DNA of 64,000 bases from an uncultured Flavobacteriaceae bacterium (GTDB taxonomy: Bacteria; Bacteroidota; Bacteroidia; Flavobacteriales; Flavobacteriaceae), in NCBI GenBank assembly GCA_947502635.1, contig CANNAN010000009.1:124001-188000 (forward strand), read 5' to 3'. Numbering within the stretch: the first letter of the stretch is position 1; each line of letters opens with the position of its first letter. Both the position numbers and the translations under genes were made by a program. Under the pieces are notes generated by a model. That model saw only the letters and a list, made by a program, of their open reading frames with translations, did not search any database and was not told the origin of the DNA. This document shows positions 46,374-56,235 of this stretch, one piece after another.

Positions 46374-48095
46374 TTACAATACTTCTTTTTCGGCATACTG
46401 CAATCCGTTTGGTAATTCAATTGAAGAAAATTCTAAATGCAGAACACGTCGTCTTTTCTGAACGGTCGTTTCAGATGAAGCATGCAACAATAAAGGCTTT
46501 ATTAATTGAACACCTCCAGATCCTACCTCACTAACAAAAGGAATTGAATTGGTTGTGATTAATTTGATTTCCGCATCATTTAAACCTTTGTTGTGCGAAC
46601 CTGGAATCACTTTAAGAGCACCATTTTTTAACGTCGTATCATCCAAATGAATGCGTATAGAAAATGTGTTTTTTGAGATTTCCTCAGGTGGGCGAACACC
46701 AATCACCCCCTTCTTATTAGTCCACGAAGTGAACCCATTAGTTTCTATTTTCTTTGCAACATTAATTGGAATATCCTGATGCCAAGTCACATACCAATTA
46801 TCTTTAGGTGATTTATCAAAATAAATAGCCTTGGTTAAAAACACATCCTTATCAATCGATTTGATAAGCTTTTTAAAATTTTTATTAAATAAGATATCTT
46901 TTAATTCAGGCATTTTTAAAAGCACTTCGCGCATACCAAAAGCTTGTTCGCTGTTTTGTTTAATATAAGTATCAAATTTTGCTTTCAGTTTCCTAATATC
47001 TCGTTTCGAATATACATGGTTTAATATACCAAAGCCTTTATACTCCAATCGTTTTGCTATTGTTCGTAAGTTCTTATCATTAATTTCGGTCTCATAAGCA
47101 TCTACAGCATCATACAATCGTTCTTTAATGTTCCGCTTCAATCGCTCGGGAGCAATCACTTTCACACCTTCACCCAAACCAAGAATTTCTTTTTCTAATT
47201 CAAAATTTAGTTGAACTTCAAAAGCAATAGTCACGCCATAATTATCTCGACTTACCTCTTTTTGAGAATGATGAAATGGTTTCGTAAGCACATAAGGTGC
47301 ATGTTTATGATTCACATAAAGCATAACCGTTTCAGGTTCTAAATTTGGGCTTACAGAAACACCAATAACATTTTTATAATAGATTTCAGAATCAAAACCA
47401 GCGTTAAAAATAAATGGTTTATCGCTTCGTTCAATCGAAATAATTCGATCCAAAGCCAAATTCATTAAGCCTTCATTTTTTTTGCGTTGACCAATTACAA
47501 ACCAACGATTTCTAAATTCTTTTAGTAAATAAGGATAATATGTAAATGTGCTTTCCTGCCGTGCCTTGAACGACTGATATGTAATTTCTATAGCTTGCTT
47601 TTTTAGTATGAATTGATAGAGCTCATCTAAAAACTCTAAGCCTTTTAAGTTTTCATTTTTTTCAAAATCAATCAAAGATTTCTCCTGTGTTTTCTGTGTA
47701 TAAACATGATCTTCCAACTTTTGGACCATACTTCCTAATTCAGCAAAATGAGAAAAGCCTTGAAACTGTTTTAAAAACGACACAGCTTCAGATAATTTTG
47801 TTAAATCCTGATTAGAAATGGGGCTATTTGTAATGCTATAATTTTCATCTTCATACTTATAAAACTTTCGGTTATAAACCACAATTGGGGCGTTGTATCC
47901 CAATTTATCACTACGCATCATTTGCAAATCTAATTGTACGGTGCGTTTACTCACATCAACATCTTTTCCTTCATACTCGTAAAGCGCATCAGAAACCGAT
48001 TCAATCAAATCATTAAGCGTCCATTGTTTGTAGTTATTTTGAAGACATTGATCTATCGTTTTGTAACGAATTAATGCATTTTTATTGGCAGCCAT
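46374..48095 (-). CDS. WYL-domain regulator fused to phytanoyl-CoA dioxygenase domain
   Basis: A 573-residue uninterrupted frame. The N-terminal third has a winged-helix start (ALIRYKTIDQCLQNNYKQWT, DVSKRTVQLDLQMM). A WYL domain follows (about 140-235; IEITYQSFKARQESTFTYYP, RWFVIGQRKKNEGLMNLALD), then a WCX-type tail to about 330. The C-terminal 240 residues are a PhyH-type Fe(II)/2-oxoglutarate dioxygenase: WHQDIPI (His-x-Asp), HLDDTTLKNGALKVIPGSHN, the distal His in PLLLHASS, and a 2OG-type Arg region (KRRRVLHLEFS). WYL regulators often control RNA-repair, defence or DNA-damage genes. The gene is downstream of the CAP gene, whose promoter carries operator S1. Confidence 0.85.
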   Translation of the reverse strand: MAANKNALIRYKTIDQCLQNNYKQWTLNDLIESVSDALYEYEGKDVDVSKRTVQLDLQMMRSDKLGYNAPIVVYNRKFYKYEDENYSITNSPISNQDLTKLSEAVSFLKQFQGFSHFAELGSMVQKLEDHVYTQKTQEKSLIDFEKNENLKGLEFLDELYQFILKKQAIEITYQSFKARQESTFTYYPYLLKEFRNRWFVIGQRKKNEGLMNLALDRIISIERSDKPFIFNAGFDSEIYYKNVIGVSVSPNLEPETVMLYVNHKHAPYVLTKPFHHSQKEVSRDNYGVTIAFEVQLNFELEKEILGLGEGVKVIAPERLKRNIKERLYDAVDAYETEINDKNLRTIAKRLEYKGFGILNHVYSKRDIRKLKAKFDTYIKQNSEQAFGMREVLLKMPELKDILFNKNFKKLIKSIDKDVFLTKAIYFDKSPKDNWYVTWHQDIPINVAKKIETNGFTSWTNKKGVIGVRPPEEISKNTFSIRIHLDDTTLKNGALKVIPGSHNKGLNDAEIKLITTNSIPFVSEVGSGGVQLIKPLLLHASSETTVQKRRRVLHLEFSSIELPNGLQYAEKEVL

Positions 48096-50422: not shown

Positions 50423-50458
50423 TACGCAAAAAGACTGCGCACTGGTAAAAAACATTTG
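50423..50458. promoter_or_regulatory. Operator-promoter S1 (RNA-repair regulon)
   Basis: TACGCAAAAAGACTGCGCA (50423-50441), with TTTG of an ACATTTG -7-like box at 50455, exactly 14 bp from the operator end, as in S2 and S3. It lies between divergent genes, so it can control both the 50473 gene and the CAP/WYL-dioxygenase operon (minus-strand -7-like TATCTTTA near 50407-50414). Confidence 0.75.
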
Positions 50459-50472
50459 TATAAAAAAAGAAA

Positions 50473-51081
50473 ATGAAAGCGCTAAAACATAAAATATTCA
50501 ATGTCCTAATTGAAAAAATAACTGTTTCAGAATTTGAAAATTGGTTGTATAACTCAGAAGAAATTATAGAAAACTTAGACAGCAATCCATACTATTTTGA
50601 TCTAATTTCAATTAATTATAAAAATGATAAATGGCAAAATGAATTTAAAAATTTGGTTAAAAAAAACTACGGTACAGATTTATTAATACTAAGTAGGCTT
50701 GAAGTGATATGCTCCAAAATCATACATTCAAAAAATATTAATGATTGTCATTGGTTAATTTCTGAAATAATAAAGGACTATAATTACGAAACAGAAAACA
50801 TAGTTTTATTTGATTTCTATAGTCTTTATAGTCAGTTCGACTTAATTAATTTGGGATATATGAACGATTCTAATTATAGTTCTGAAGCTAAATATATTTC
50901 ATCTTTATTTTTAAATAAAGTTGAAAATTTTAATTCTTTAGATGAAAAAGTTAACGCTTTGAAATCTTCATTAGAAAAAAATTTTTTTTTAGACAGGAAA
51001 AATAATAAGATAAAACCTATTTCGAATTATCAAAATTCAACTCTAAAACAAAAAATACTTGCTTTTTTCAAAAAAAGTTAA
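50473..51081 (+). CDS. Hypothetical protein of the RtcB regulon
   Basis: A 202-residue acidic, Asn/Tyr/Ile-rich soluble protein. It opens MKALKHKIFNVLIEKITVSE with EFENWLYNSEEIIENL. It has a helix-rich plan like small immunity or adaptor proteins, and a basic tail LKQKILAFFKKS. No family recognised. It is driven by operator S1 and so is expected to be co-regulated with the tRNA-like leader operon and rtcB. It diverges from the CAP gene. Confidence 0.65.
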   Translation: MKALKHKIFNVLIEKITVSEFENWLYNSEEIIENLDSNPYYFDLISINYKNDKWQNEFKNLVKKNYGTDLLILSRLEVICSKIIHSKNINDCHWLISEIIKDYNYETENIVLFDFYSLYSQFDLINLGYMNDSNYSSEAKYISSLFLNKVENFNSLDEKVNALKSSLEKNFFLDRKNNKIKPISNYQNSTLKQKILAFFKKS

Positions 51082-52011: not shown

Positions 52012-52047
52012 TACGCAGAAACATTGCGCAATAGTATAAAATATTTG
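52012..52047 (+). promoter_or_regulatory. Operator-promoter S2 (RNA-repair regulon)
   Basis: TACGCAGAAACATTGCGCA (52012-52030), then TTTG at 52044, spaced exactly 14 bp as in S1 and S3, with ATATTTGCAG as the -7 region. Predicted start near 52053. It drives the hairpin/tRNA-like leader and the 624-aa gene. Confidence 0.78.
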
Positions 52048-52093: not shown

Positions 52094-52122
52094 ACTCCAC
52101 CAGACGCGGATGCTGGTGGGGT
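52094..52122 (+). other. Strong leader hairpin
   Basis: ACTCCACCAG - 9-nt loop - CTGGTGGGGT, a 10-bp stem with one G-U pair, about 40 nt after the predicted start from S2 and 34 nt before the tRNA-like fold. No T-run of terminator length follows. It may be a processing or protein-binding element. Confidence 0.6.
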
Positions 52123-52156: not shown

Positions 52157-52271
52157 AGTTCGGTAGCTCAGTGGTTAGAGCAACAGAAATTACTTTGCGC
52201 AAATAAGCATACAAAGTTCCTAAAAAACTTTAATCTGTGTGGCGCAGGTTCGAATCCTGCCCGAACTACCA
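52157..52271 (+). tRNA. tRNA-like RNA with 39-nt insertion in the anticodon loop
   Basis: Canonical tRNA parts are all present: acceptor AGTTCGG/CCGAACT (7 bp), T8-A9, D-arm GCTC-AGTGGTTA-GAGC with the GG pair, anticodon stem ACAGA/TCTGT, variable loop GTGGC, T-arm GCAGG-TTCGAAT-CCTGC, discriminator A and encoded CCA. The anticodon loop is 46 nt (52188-52233) rather than 7. Without the extra 39 nt the RNA would be a standard 76 nt. The insert can fold as ACTTTG...CAAAGT or, exclusively, as AAAGTT...AACTTT. It lies in the leader of an RtcB-linked operon, so an intron-like, bait or sensor tRNA is possible. The amino-acid identity cannot be told. Confidence 0.72.
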
Positions 52272-52283
52272 TTATAAATCACT

Positions 52284-52448
52284 GACATAGAAAGTTCCTA
52301 TAAACAATCATTTAAAGAAATTACTTTCCGTTAGTAAAAAGACAAAAAGAGTTCCTATATCTGGTTCGATTCCAGAGCTCGAAAGAGCTTGCAGTTAATT
52401 TATACTCTTCGTCTTTTAAAATAGGTAAAAGGAGTTCCTATATACACC
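52284..52448 (+). ncRNA. Second leader RNA module with T-arm mimic and repeated motifs
   Basis: Contains CTGG-TTCGATT-CCAG (52361-52375), a T-arm look-alike, joined directly to AGCTC-GAAA-GAGCT (52376-52389), a GAAA-capped stem that could mimic an acceptor helix. The motif AGTTCCTATA occurs at about 52292, 52350 and 52433, with a variant AGTTCCTAAA inside the tRNA-like insert (52215). GAAATTACTTT-s-CG occurs both in that insert (52186) and at 52317. The repeats are seen; a shared recognition or cleavage function is inferred. Confidence 0.5.
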
Positions 52449-52455
52449 TCCAAAA

Positions 52456-54330
52456 ATGAATACTCCTCACTTATTTAAAATATTAAAAATGAAAACATTA
52501 AAATTATTTAACGCGATAGTAGCAAAAACATCAAACGAAAAACCATACATCTCAGAAGATGGATTCATAATTGAATCAAATGCACTTTGGGCAAAAGACA
52601 AGATTATCGCCTTTTTTAAAAATGAAAAATTAAACGGTAACGGTTTAAATAAGACATTTCATAAATCTTGGTCTAAGATCAAAGAAAGTACACAGCATGA
52701 ATTATTCTTAGATCAAATTTCTCATTACATATCTACTTATGCAAGTGATTTTCAGGATGAAGTTTACATCCCTAAAGAAGTCTTGAATATTCCAGAAATA
52801 AAGCTAGTTTATAAGATAATTAAAGCATATTCTATTGATGAAATGAAGCAAAAGTGTTTGTTTATGCTTCAATCTGGTATGGCATTGAAAGAAGATACGG
52901 TAAACGATCTTATTTTAGTATTAGTTGATGAGTTAGGCTATACATTTACAGGAAAAGAGGGCATTAAGAATAAAGAAGCTATTGTAAAATTAGCCGAATA
53001 CTATAATATATACCCAGAAAGTGCAGTTGAATTTTTTAGATACATTATTTATAAAACAACAGATACTACATTATTAATAAAAAATGAAAAGTTAATTGAA
53101 TTGATTAAAAACAGTTCATATAACCCAACACAAGCCTTTGGCAGTTTTGGTCTAGAAAAACTTGCTAAAATCTTTAATAGATTCAAGCCTTTGTTCTTGG
53201 CTTTCAAAAATAGAGCACCAAAAACGATTAATAAAATAAGTAAACTTTCTAAAACACACCACAAGCCATTGGTTTCAAATCCGTTAAACGATGTGACTAA
53301 TACAATAATAACAGACAAAGATGTACATTGGTTAGATAACGCAACACCATTTGCTTTGTTTAAGGCTTTATCTGCTTGTTACAATAGAAAACAAGGGCAA
53401 GACGCCTTTTTGTATAAAATTAGAAATGGTAAGTCTTGGGTGAAATCTAGCGAAACCACAATTATAGACAACAAGAATAATCAATTTTTAAGCTTTATAA
53501 AGCAGAAAGCTAATCCATCTAAAAAAGAAATCAATGTTTTAGAAAATACAATTTACACAAAAAATTATATGTTTTTGTTAAACTATATAAAGCAACGATT
53601 TGATTTATCTGGCAAAACGATCTTTCTTCCAAAGAACATCAAGTATGCATTACCAACCTCGGAAAAAATGTATATAGGAAACATTCCTGTAGGAACACGT
53701 TTTTATGGTAAAAAATTAGCTATTGGCGTTTATTGGGAAAATGCTTGGGGAGCTCATGATTTGGATTTATCTGGTTTAAATATTGCTGGTAAAATAGGTT
53801 GGAATGCGACTTATAATCAACAAAAAGGTAATTTGATGTATTCTGGAGATATTACATCAGCGCCTGAAGGAGCTGTAGAATATTTGTATGCAAACAAAGG
53901 ACTTAATGCGCCAACGTTGATTCAAAACAATGTCTATTCAGGAAATGCAAATAGCGGCTACAAAATCATCATTGGTCAAGGAGATTCGGTTTCTAACGAT
54001 TTCATGATGAATCCAAACAATTTGTTTGCAGATATCAAATGTGAATCTGTACAAAAACAAACTATTTTAGGCCTGTTAATCCCGAAAAAGGAGGGAAAGC
54101 AATGCTTTGTGCTATTAAATTTTGGTGCGGGTCACGCTAGAGTTTCTGGTAATTCTGAAGTATCAAATTTAGCAACAAAAGCACTTTACCAGCAATGGAA
54201 TAAGCCATTATCGTTTGGTAAATTTATAAAGTCCTTGGGAGCAGAACTTGTTAATGATAGAACAGAAGCAGATTATGATTTTTCCTTAGAAACTTTAGAA
54301 AAAGATAGTTTTTTGGAGCCTTTTAGATAA
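52456..54330 (+). CDS. RtcB-island protein with helical repeats and TerD-like C-terminus
   Basis: A 624-residue soluble protein. ATG 52456 is the longest start; ATG 52489 (MKTLKLFNAIVAKT) may be the real one. Residues about 80-300 are helical repeats with KIFNRFKPLFLAFKNR and a basic segment KISKLSKTHHKPL, like HEAT/TROVE-type RNA-binding modules. Residues about 440-620 read RFYGKKLAIGVYWENAWGAH, DLDLSGLNIAGKIGW and GDITSAPEGAVEYLY, a pattern like TerD-family domains. It follows the tRNA-like leader under operator S2 and precedes rtcB. I infer an RNA-binding or sensing role for the leader RNA; there is no proven function. Confidence 0.75.
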   Translation: MNTPHLFKILKMKTLKLFNAIVAKTSNEKPYISEDGFIIESNALWAKDKIIAFFKNEKLNGNGLNKTFHKSWSKIKESTQHELFLDQISHYISTYASDFQDEVYIPKEVLNIPEIKLVYKIIKAYSIDEMKQKCLFMLQSGMALKEDTVNDLILVLVDELGYTFTGKEGIKNKEAIVKLAEYYNIYPESAVEFFRYIIYKTTDTTLLIKNEKLIELIKNSSYNPTQAFGSFGLEKLAKIFNRFKPLFLAFKNRAPKTINKISKLSKTHHKPLVSNPLNDVTNTIITDKDVHWLDNATPFALFKALSACYNRKQGQDAFLYKIRNGKSWVKSSETTIIDNKNNQFLSFIKQKANPSKKEINVLENTIYTKNYMFLLNYIKQRFDLSGKTIFLPKNIKYALPTSEKMYIGNIPVGTRFYGKKLAIGVYWENAWGAHDLDLSGLNIAGKIGWNATYNQQKGNLMYSGDITSAPEGAVEYLYANKGLNAPTLIQNNVYSGNANSGYKIIIGQGDSVSNDFMMNPNNLFADIKCESVQKQTILGLLIPKKEGKQCFVLLNFGAGHARVSGNSEVSNLATKALYQQWNKPLSFGKFIKSLGAELVNDRTEADYDFSLETLEKDSFLEPFR

Positions 54331-54350: not shown

Positions 54351-54386
54351 TACGCAGAAAGACTGCGCAATATGCTATAATATTTG
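54351..54386 (+). promoter_or_regulatory. Operator-promoter S3 upstream of rtcB
   Basis: TACGCAGAAAGACTGCGCA (54351-54369), then TTTG at 54383, spacing 14 bp. The same 19-bp inverted repeat and geometry occur at S1 and S2, which defines a regulon. Position over the -33 region fits a repressor or activator dimer. Confidence 0.8.
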
Positions 54387-54394
54387 TAGCGTAA

Positions 54395-56235
<1,841 letters not shown>

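Follow-up and report, generated by a model that had tools for sequence, protein, structure and literature searches.

The question raised by this locus is what use a bacterium has for a tRNA whose anticodon loop is filled by an insert. The locus lies in a 64,000-nucleotide (nt) stretch of the genome of an uncultured Flavobacteriaceae bacterium, the whole of which is called the window here, and comprises an insert-bearing tRNA, three hairpins and the gene of a 613-amino-acid (aa) protein, with rtcB, the gene of an RNA ligase, further downstream. The original prediction, made from the letters of the sequence, proposed a spliced tRNA, a decoy for anticodon nucleases or a damage sensor. The present analysis suggests that the RNA is probably a tRNA-bodied, Y-RNA-like scaffold for a protein other than Ro60, acting in an RNA-damage regulon. 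Its features are as follows, R1 being the RNA model of the free hairpin (seed alignment A8) and R2 that of the insert tRNA.

52157-52271, + strand: insert-bearing tRNA (Rfam tRNA model RF00005, 56.4 bits; R2, 106.9 bits, as a seed member; covariation).
52157-52163 with 52261-52267, + strand: acceptor stem of this tRNA, with the T-arm at 52244-52260 and CCA at 52269-52271.
52188-52233, + strand: 46-nt anticodon 'loop', holding the motif in strand order A-B (alignment, pair counts, minimum-energy fold).
52192-52197 with 52212-52217, + strand: insert helix P2, with helix P1 at 52199-52200 and 52207-52208, and GUUCC at 52216.
52283-52334, + strand: free hairpin 1, strand order B-A (R1 E 6.6e-14 in a whole-genome search; member of seed A8).
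52340-52415, + strand: free hairpin 2 (R1 E 7.4e-9; outside the seed), with a T-arm (52361-52375) and a GAAA-capped mini-helix (52376-52389) in its loop by minimum-energy folding.
52423-52473, + strand: free hairpin 3 (R1 E 3.8e-12; seed member), which stops 16 nt before the start codon.
52489-54330, + strand: gene of the 613-aa protein, with a helical N-part and a TerD-like C-part (alignment, AlphaFold2, Foldseek, hhalign).

Apart from its anticodon loop the RNA is an intact tRNA. RF00005 (gathering threshold 29 bits) covers 52157-52268 on the + strand with all 71 model positions, 46 nt replace the 7-nt anticodon loop of the model, and the ACAGA/UCUGU anticodon stem is unbroken; the original description of an intact tRNA with an encoded CCA and a 46-nt loop thus holds. 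The CCA is present in the window tRNA, but only 2 of 33 aligned relatives encode one. Of the 47 RF00005 matches that the whole-genome listing contains, no other exceeds 90 nt. The closest ordinary tRNA of the genome is Phe, and because even this best match is weak, the origin of the insert tRNA is left unassigned. A group I intron was considered and rejected: at Rfam gathering thresholds only tRNA matched at 52157-52268, and the loop is just 46 nt. ARAGORN, run on the window, did not report the tRNA at 52157-52271, and it missed the insert tRNA in all 10 further insert-bearing loci where it was run, so that the annotation of many genomes probably lacks such genes.

The insert is one copy of a defined motif, composed of the P1 helix, an AAA/C internal loop, a 6-base-pair (bp) P2 helix and GUUCCUA/UAC, and the three free hairpins downstream consist of the same two strands in reversed order. 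A free hairpin runs through P1 (4 bp), AAA opposite C and P2 (6 bp) to an unpaired UCCU beside A-U. Homologues with conserved stems, which the original prediction had proposed to seek in other Bacteroidota, were found: 33 insert tRNAs, from the window and 30 named loci, were aligned (alignment A2, the source of the 33 seed rows of R2), with an insert core of UACUUUYCGC...GGCA-A-AAAGUUCCUA. Across 28 pairs of this alignment 97.2% of cells are paired, and covariation is 0.339 versus 0.126 when shuffled. Two-sided change occurs at 14 of the 28 pairs, compensatory changes are present in the tRNA stems, and the helices of tRNA body and insert both hold. The P1 pairs of the insert are uninformative because they are invariant throughout, and the pairing evidence is weakened by the outermost P2 pair (columns 46/67), which fails in 16 of 33 rows, and by pair 40/77, which fails in 7 of the 32 rows with letters. 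Single insert tRNAs frequently misfold in prediction; the minimum-energy fold of the window tRNA does include P2. The two exclusive hairpins first proposed for the insert fared differently, since ACTTTG/CAAAGT is the conserved P2 helix, whereas an exact partner of the AAAGTT/AACTTT type occurs in one of 33 rows, that of the window itself. The window thus encodes a real, conserved, covariance-supported tRNA with an insert in its anticodon arm.

Pairing of the free hairpins was examined in two ways. In a set of 60, 98.5% of cells are paired, with a covariation of 0.662 versus 0.280 when shuffled. This set had been chosen by P2 pairing; P1 pairing played no part in the choice, and P1 is 98.8% paired with 71 two-sided changes. 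Because of the selection on P2, the test was redone without it, picking the partner strand by TACNNNNC[GA] alone, which 270 of 333 GTTCCTA sites possessed. The 95 distinct cases showed P2 paired at 88.7% and P1 at 91.8%, compared with shuffled maxima of 70.5% and 75.0%. The full free motif occurs at 288 of 368 GTTCC sites in leaders, whereas same-strand sites elsewhere have it in 41 of 963 cases and opposite-strand sites in 21 of 1178; the leader count retains sites of a doubtful type, with the partner past another GTTCC (mostly insert tRNAs), 22 of which were dropped from an initial 300 free sites to leave the 278 used below. An insert-site version of this test was loose (59/368 in leaders, 23/963 and 43/1178 elsewhere) and is not relied on. 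In the window and 30 loci, Rfam at gathering thresholds matched only tRNA and transfer-messenger RNA (tmRNA) families.

The distribution of these RNAs follows the 613-aa protein. The survey covered 395 genomes of the order, the genome of the window among them, together with 124 named genome loci, 80 of which were kept, and 28 viral loci with the protein, 24 of which enter the motif count while the other four start inside the gene. A homologue of the protein was matched in 32 of the 395 genomes and R1 in 30, every one within the 32; the two protein-positive genomes that lack R1 have a protein match of 1.7e-4 and a 110-aa fragment, respectively. Each listed R1 match in these genomes lies at most about 400 nt from the protein gene, and all three in the genome of the window fall in the leader of the gene. 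Some R1-positive genomes supplied seed sequences, and the weight of the comparison lies in where the matches fall and in their absence elsewhere. At least one full free motif is present in all 80 named loci and in 22 of 24 viral loci, the last hairpin standing 11-46 nt before the ATG (median 21; 78 sources). R2 places an insert tRNA near the gene in 63 of 80 named loci, of which 30 supplied seed rows, and, on the criteria of length and position, in 7 of the 28 viral loci, of which L129 and L130 look like near copies; that of L134 was found by RF00005 only (29.5 bits).

Outside its seed R1 also matches the phages S-CRM01 (5 places), S-CBWM1 (2) and Phass-1 (5). The protein gene sits within the tRNA clusters of the cyanophages S-CRM01 and S-CBWM1, and the hairpins lie 3' of the gene in Phass-1 and S-CRM01 and inside the tRNA cluster in S-CBWM1. 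At least three tRNAs are present in 13 of 28 viral loci, and 7 of 80 named loci (L040, L041, L044, L046, L065, L104, L109) are near 7-18 tRNA genes. RtcB was matched in the fetched flanks of none of the 28 viral loci while 22 have hairpins, which makes the 613-aa protein the closest link. These RNAs form a conserved family whose protein neighbour is specific, and the primary association of the RNA array is with the 613-aa protein gene, not with rtcB.

Parts of tRNAs recur in the hairpins themselves. A T-arm occupies 18 of 278 apical loops, versus 0.05 expected from shuffles, and such loops occur at 14 named and two viral loci as well as in the window, where the minimum-energy fold of hairpin 2 consists of the P1 and P2 motif stem, the T-arm and the GAAA-capped mini-helix. 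One hairpin loop of S-CRM01 holds a fully permuted tRNA, with 5/5 pairs of the T stem, 9/9 of a closed acceptor and 4/4 of the D stem, in a fold of -29.3 that lies above the minimum-energy fold of -33.7. Permuted or partial tRNA forms thus occur within this RNA family.

Searches with the window protein gave nothing in Pfam at 1e-3 or in NCBIfam and PADLOC at 0.1. Its reading frame is open from 52456, and the start kept among relatives is 52489. The AlphaFold2 model (predicted local distance difference test score, pLDDT, 84.9) has a helical N-part and a beta C-part; its sole Foldseek match at 1e-3 or better is TerD (3ibz, E 5.2e-5, template modelling score 0.50 by target). Alignment to TerD by hhalign gave E 6.2e-4 at a probability of 28%, and there was no Pfam TerD (PF02342) match. 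Modelled alone, the N-part reached a pLDDT of 75.9. Identity with Ro60/TROVE was tried and rejected, there being no Pfam TROVE match in 40 family members; a search of the genome of the window for TROVE (PF05731) likewise gave no match. In L044, L068, L101, L106 and L118 the open reading frame (ORF) of the TerD-like protein is short or interrupted, and the RNAs are nonetheless present.

The following features place the array in an RNA-repair setting.

50423-50441: operator before an uncharacterised 202-aa ORF at 50473-51081 (exact pattern search).
52012-52030: operator TACGCA-N7-TGCGCA upstream of the RNA array (exact pattern search).
54351-54369: operator upstream of rtcB (exact pattern search).
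54407-55798, + strand: RtcB RNA ligase (Pfam PF01139, E 1.1e-37).
46374-48095, - strand: WYL-WCX regulator fused to a PhyH domain (Pfam WYL 2.9e-11, PhyH 8.2e-11).

The pattern TACGCAN7TGCGYA has four sites in the genome, three in the window and one at C14:37620, and its reversed control has none. The C14 site has a 12-tRNA array on one side and two RlaP-family genes on the other. Farther along are an RF-1-domain protein, presumably PrfH-like, and a second RtcB, and a DUF3686 ATPase is also in that neighbourhood. The WYL-PhyH protein is a candidate reader of the operator; a homologue occurs in 64 of 80 named loci, and at least one T[AG]CGCAN7TGCGYA site in 63, within 800 nt upstream of the gene in 15. 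Within the flanks fetched, 70 of 80 named loci have an RtcB match (66 upstream and 4 downstream of the protein gene), and RtcB stands upstream of the 613-aa-type ORF in all 60 Chryseobacterium loci. The 28 viral loci had no T[AG]CGCAN7TGCGYA site and no match to RtcB or WYL-PhyH in their fetched flanks. The original prediction had put rtcB 2 kb downstream under the same operator: the distance is right (2.1 kb), but rtcB has an operator copy of its own, and although the RNA-repair setting is borne out, the gene directly after the RNA is the 613-aa ORF.

The Y-RNA-like reading draws its strongest support from a design that the RNA shares with that of a Chryseobacterium TROVE gene. At locus L117 this gene (Pfam E 1.4e-11) is preceded by an operator, by a tRNA whose insert is another one and by a hairpin. 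Both designs consist of a motif in the anticodon arm of a tRNA plus a free hairpin, the latter by our reading with its strands in opposite order. The Chryseobacterium TROVE-linked insert tRNA is possibly an unpermuted Y RNA, and the L117 hairpin strands GGUGUGA and UUAACC resemble what we take to be the Ro60 site of animal Y RNAs. An insert tRNA precedes the TROVE gene in 2/2 Chryseobacterium loci versus 0/12 loci (about 3.3 kb each) of other Bacteroidota, and a clear copy of the L117 tRNA stretch was found in 3 of 9 genomes searched, two being those of L117 and L102. The insert tRNA of the TROVE genes carries a GUUACUUCG motif, with a hairpin besides, at L117 (10296-11784), L241 and L242. By eye, the Ro60-binding stem, whose consensus we take to be GGUCCGA/UUGACC, is unlike the present motif of GUUCCUA/UAC with an AAA/C loop. 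Burroughs and Aravind reportedly described in 2016 RNA-repair systems of the ROT/TROVE and SPFH/Band-7 kinds with a tRNA-like partner.

Several known systems are comparable. According to PMC8394870 and PMC7790460, YrlA-type Y RNA, the partner of Rsr/Ro60, carries a tRNA mimic with D, T and acceptor arms on a protein-binding stem, and its gene lies beside that of an RNA-binding protein and, in some bacteria, rtcB. The window RNA likewise has a tRNA module with D and T arms, by RF00005 and by stem covariation. It differs in that the YrlA partner is TROVE, while the present partner is non-TROVE by sequence and the stem motif is another one. The YrlA module is permuted, with a closed acceptor stem and no free CCA, while the window tRNA is whole and unpermuted, with free ends and CCA; the capped or permuted forms are those of hairpin 2 and S-CRM01. 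The docking motif of the window sits in the anticodon arm, and several hairpins make an array. The Rsr-like gene 055 of Listeria phage CKA15 provides a phage RNA-binding protein near tRNA genes and putative noncoding RNAs; three abundant RNAs lie upstream, and Rsr is given as the best HHpred match (PMC12282133). The Anabaena TrcR regulon (PMC10272220) joins a normally silent 26-tRNA array and rtcB under one regulator in translation stress, a precedent for joint control, although the regulator differs and a term search of that text gave no TROVE, Ro60 or WYL. The ROT/TROVE and SPFH/Band-7 repair systems, as cited in PMC7824862, are similar as RtcB-linked scaffolds with noncoding RNA partners. 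A literature search, which covered a small part of the literature, met no mention of the present RNA family.

In the favoured reading, the insert would be a docking module for the protein of the adjacent gene, with its helical N-part and TerD-like C-part, and the tRNA body, T-arm or mini-helix, held on the same end of this module, would be the tRNA mimic. The ribonucleoprotein would present the mimic to tRNA-acting enzymes or place it on them. The operon would be switched on jointly with rtcB when the RNA of translation is damaged, along with a co-induced locus of RlaP nucleotidyltransferases, RF-1-domain (PrfH-like) protein, second RtcB and 12-tRNA array, and through the hairpin just 5' of its start codon the protein probably restrains its own production. 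The 'decoy' and 'damage sensor' of the original prediction are possible uses of such a scaffold.

Several observations weigh against this reading. A recognisable T-arm is lacking in 260 of 278 free hairpins, and the excess of anticodon-arm-like loops (11 versus 2.4 expected) is weak evidence, suggestive only. By R2, 17 of 80 named loci and 15 of 22 hairpin-bearing viral loci are without an insert tRNA, so that the system can do without the tRNA body, and the motif is absent in viral loci L121 and L123 although upstream sequence is present. Ten of 80 named loci gave no RtcB match in the flanks fetched, and the RtcB matches of L044, L050 and L065 are of just 27-31% identity. Since the fourth operator follows the tRNA array at its 3' end and precedes an RlaP gene, its control of the array is inferred. 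The N-part alone gave no significant fold match, and alignment of the protein to 10 TROVE proteins by hhalign gave a probability of 0.2%; since the protein is by sequence not TROVE and the N-part fold is unmatched, the comparison with Y RNA rests on RNA architecture and gene context.

Whether the insert can be removed to leave a working tRNA bears on the rival explanations. In 38 of 40 insert tRNAs that could be parsed, cuts were sought that yield a canonical anticodon arm (5 bp, U33, R37), in counts that carry no chance control. Such an arm is reached at some cut in 13 of the 38 and at none in 25, the window tRNA being among the latter. A cut after nt 29 restores it in seven: L039, L040, L041, L042, L046 and L104 (all CAU) and the second copy of L065 (CAA). 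Other cuts judged to be outside the motif do so in four (second copy of L044, L050, L084, L134), and cuts inside the motif alone in L060 and L119. Among Chryseobacterium rows 2 of 20 reach the arm, one through a cut inside the motif. Some inserts thus have the appearance of having entered functional tRNAs at position 29/30. Most rows retain no canonical anticodon arm, which argues that the shape of a tRNA has been kept and not a decoding tRNA.

The best of the rivals, itself unlikely, takes the tRNA body and the tRNA-arm hairpins as baits for anticodon nucleases or other tRNases, held by the protein, with RtcB re-sealing them or the cut ends signalling damage. It would suit the RNA-repair gene setting, the T-arms within hairpin loops, the phage copies amid tRNA clusters, and the anticodon-arm-like loops, of Lys or Gln type by sequence, at single loci (L040, L042, L120 and L177 of Phass-1). 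A bait for anticodon nucleases would, however, be spoiled in the 25 of 38 insert tRNAs that have no canonical arm, and in PMC7790460 Salmonella YrlA is reported to be uncut by the induced nuclease.

Somewhat less likely still is a purely cis-regulatory leader, with the hairpins as operators for translational self-repression and the tRNA body merely aiding RNA processing. The position of the array, its last hairpin close before the ATG, agrees with this, but compensatory changes in tRNA bodies, T-arm loops, and hairpins after the gene (Phass-1, S-CRM01) or within a tRNA cluster (S-CBWM1) would be left unexplained.

A spliced bacterial tRNA, its insert an intron cut by an unidentified endonuclease and its ends joined by RtcB, is improbable. 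The seven loci restored by the cut after nt 29 and the four restored by other cuts outside the motif speak for it; the window arm cannot be restored, nor can those of 18 of the 20 Chryseobacterium rows, the motif also stands outside tRNAs as free hairpins, and viral loci with insert tRNAs show no RtcB match in their fetched flanks. As a general function, splicing is not supported.

A decayed tRNA pseudogene with a random insertion, suggested by the non-canonical anticodon loop of the window, has next to no chance of being right, because homologues with conserved stems exist, with body and insert covarying and widely conserved.

Beyond the Y-RNA-like scaffold itself, a more tentative generalization, rated just short of even, is that these RNAs form a second, Ro60-independent class of tRNA-mimic ribonucleoprotein in Bacteroidota and in phages of several hosts. 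One docking motif in two strand orders would have been placed repeatedly into tRNAs of various kinds, Met-type, phage and other, and would have acquired individual tRNA arms; a single protein might thereby carry a panel of tRNA surfaces for the repair, sensing or protection of tRNA in phage or toxin conflict. In bacteria its regulation would be shared with repair enzymes and an array of spare tRNAs. Because the RNA family is compact, its motif defined and its protein neighbour specific, and because phage versions exist, binding, processing and function are directly testable. Such a family bears on what bacterial RNA-repair operons act on and on the use they make of tRNA mimicry; the abstract of PMC7790460 calls the substrates of the encoded repair enzymes unknown.

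Some minor observations were made in passing. A GC-rich hairpin at 52095-52121 (CTCCACCAG...CTGGTGGGG) lies between the operator and the tRNA, and L039 and L042 have similar ones there. The insert tRNA of L102 (4650-4811) has an additional insertion of about 50 nt around the T-loop. The fusion of WYL to a PhyH dioxygenase-like domain at 46374-48095 seems an unusual combination. The array at C14:37662-38990 (L252 7662-8990), beside the only other exact operator of the genome, consists of 12 divergent tRNA genes. Near the phage copies at L128, L129 and L177 are tmRNA genes, one of them a match to the permuted family.
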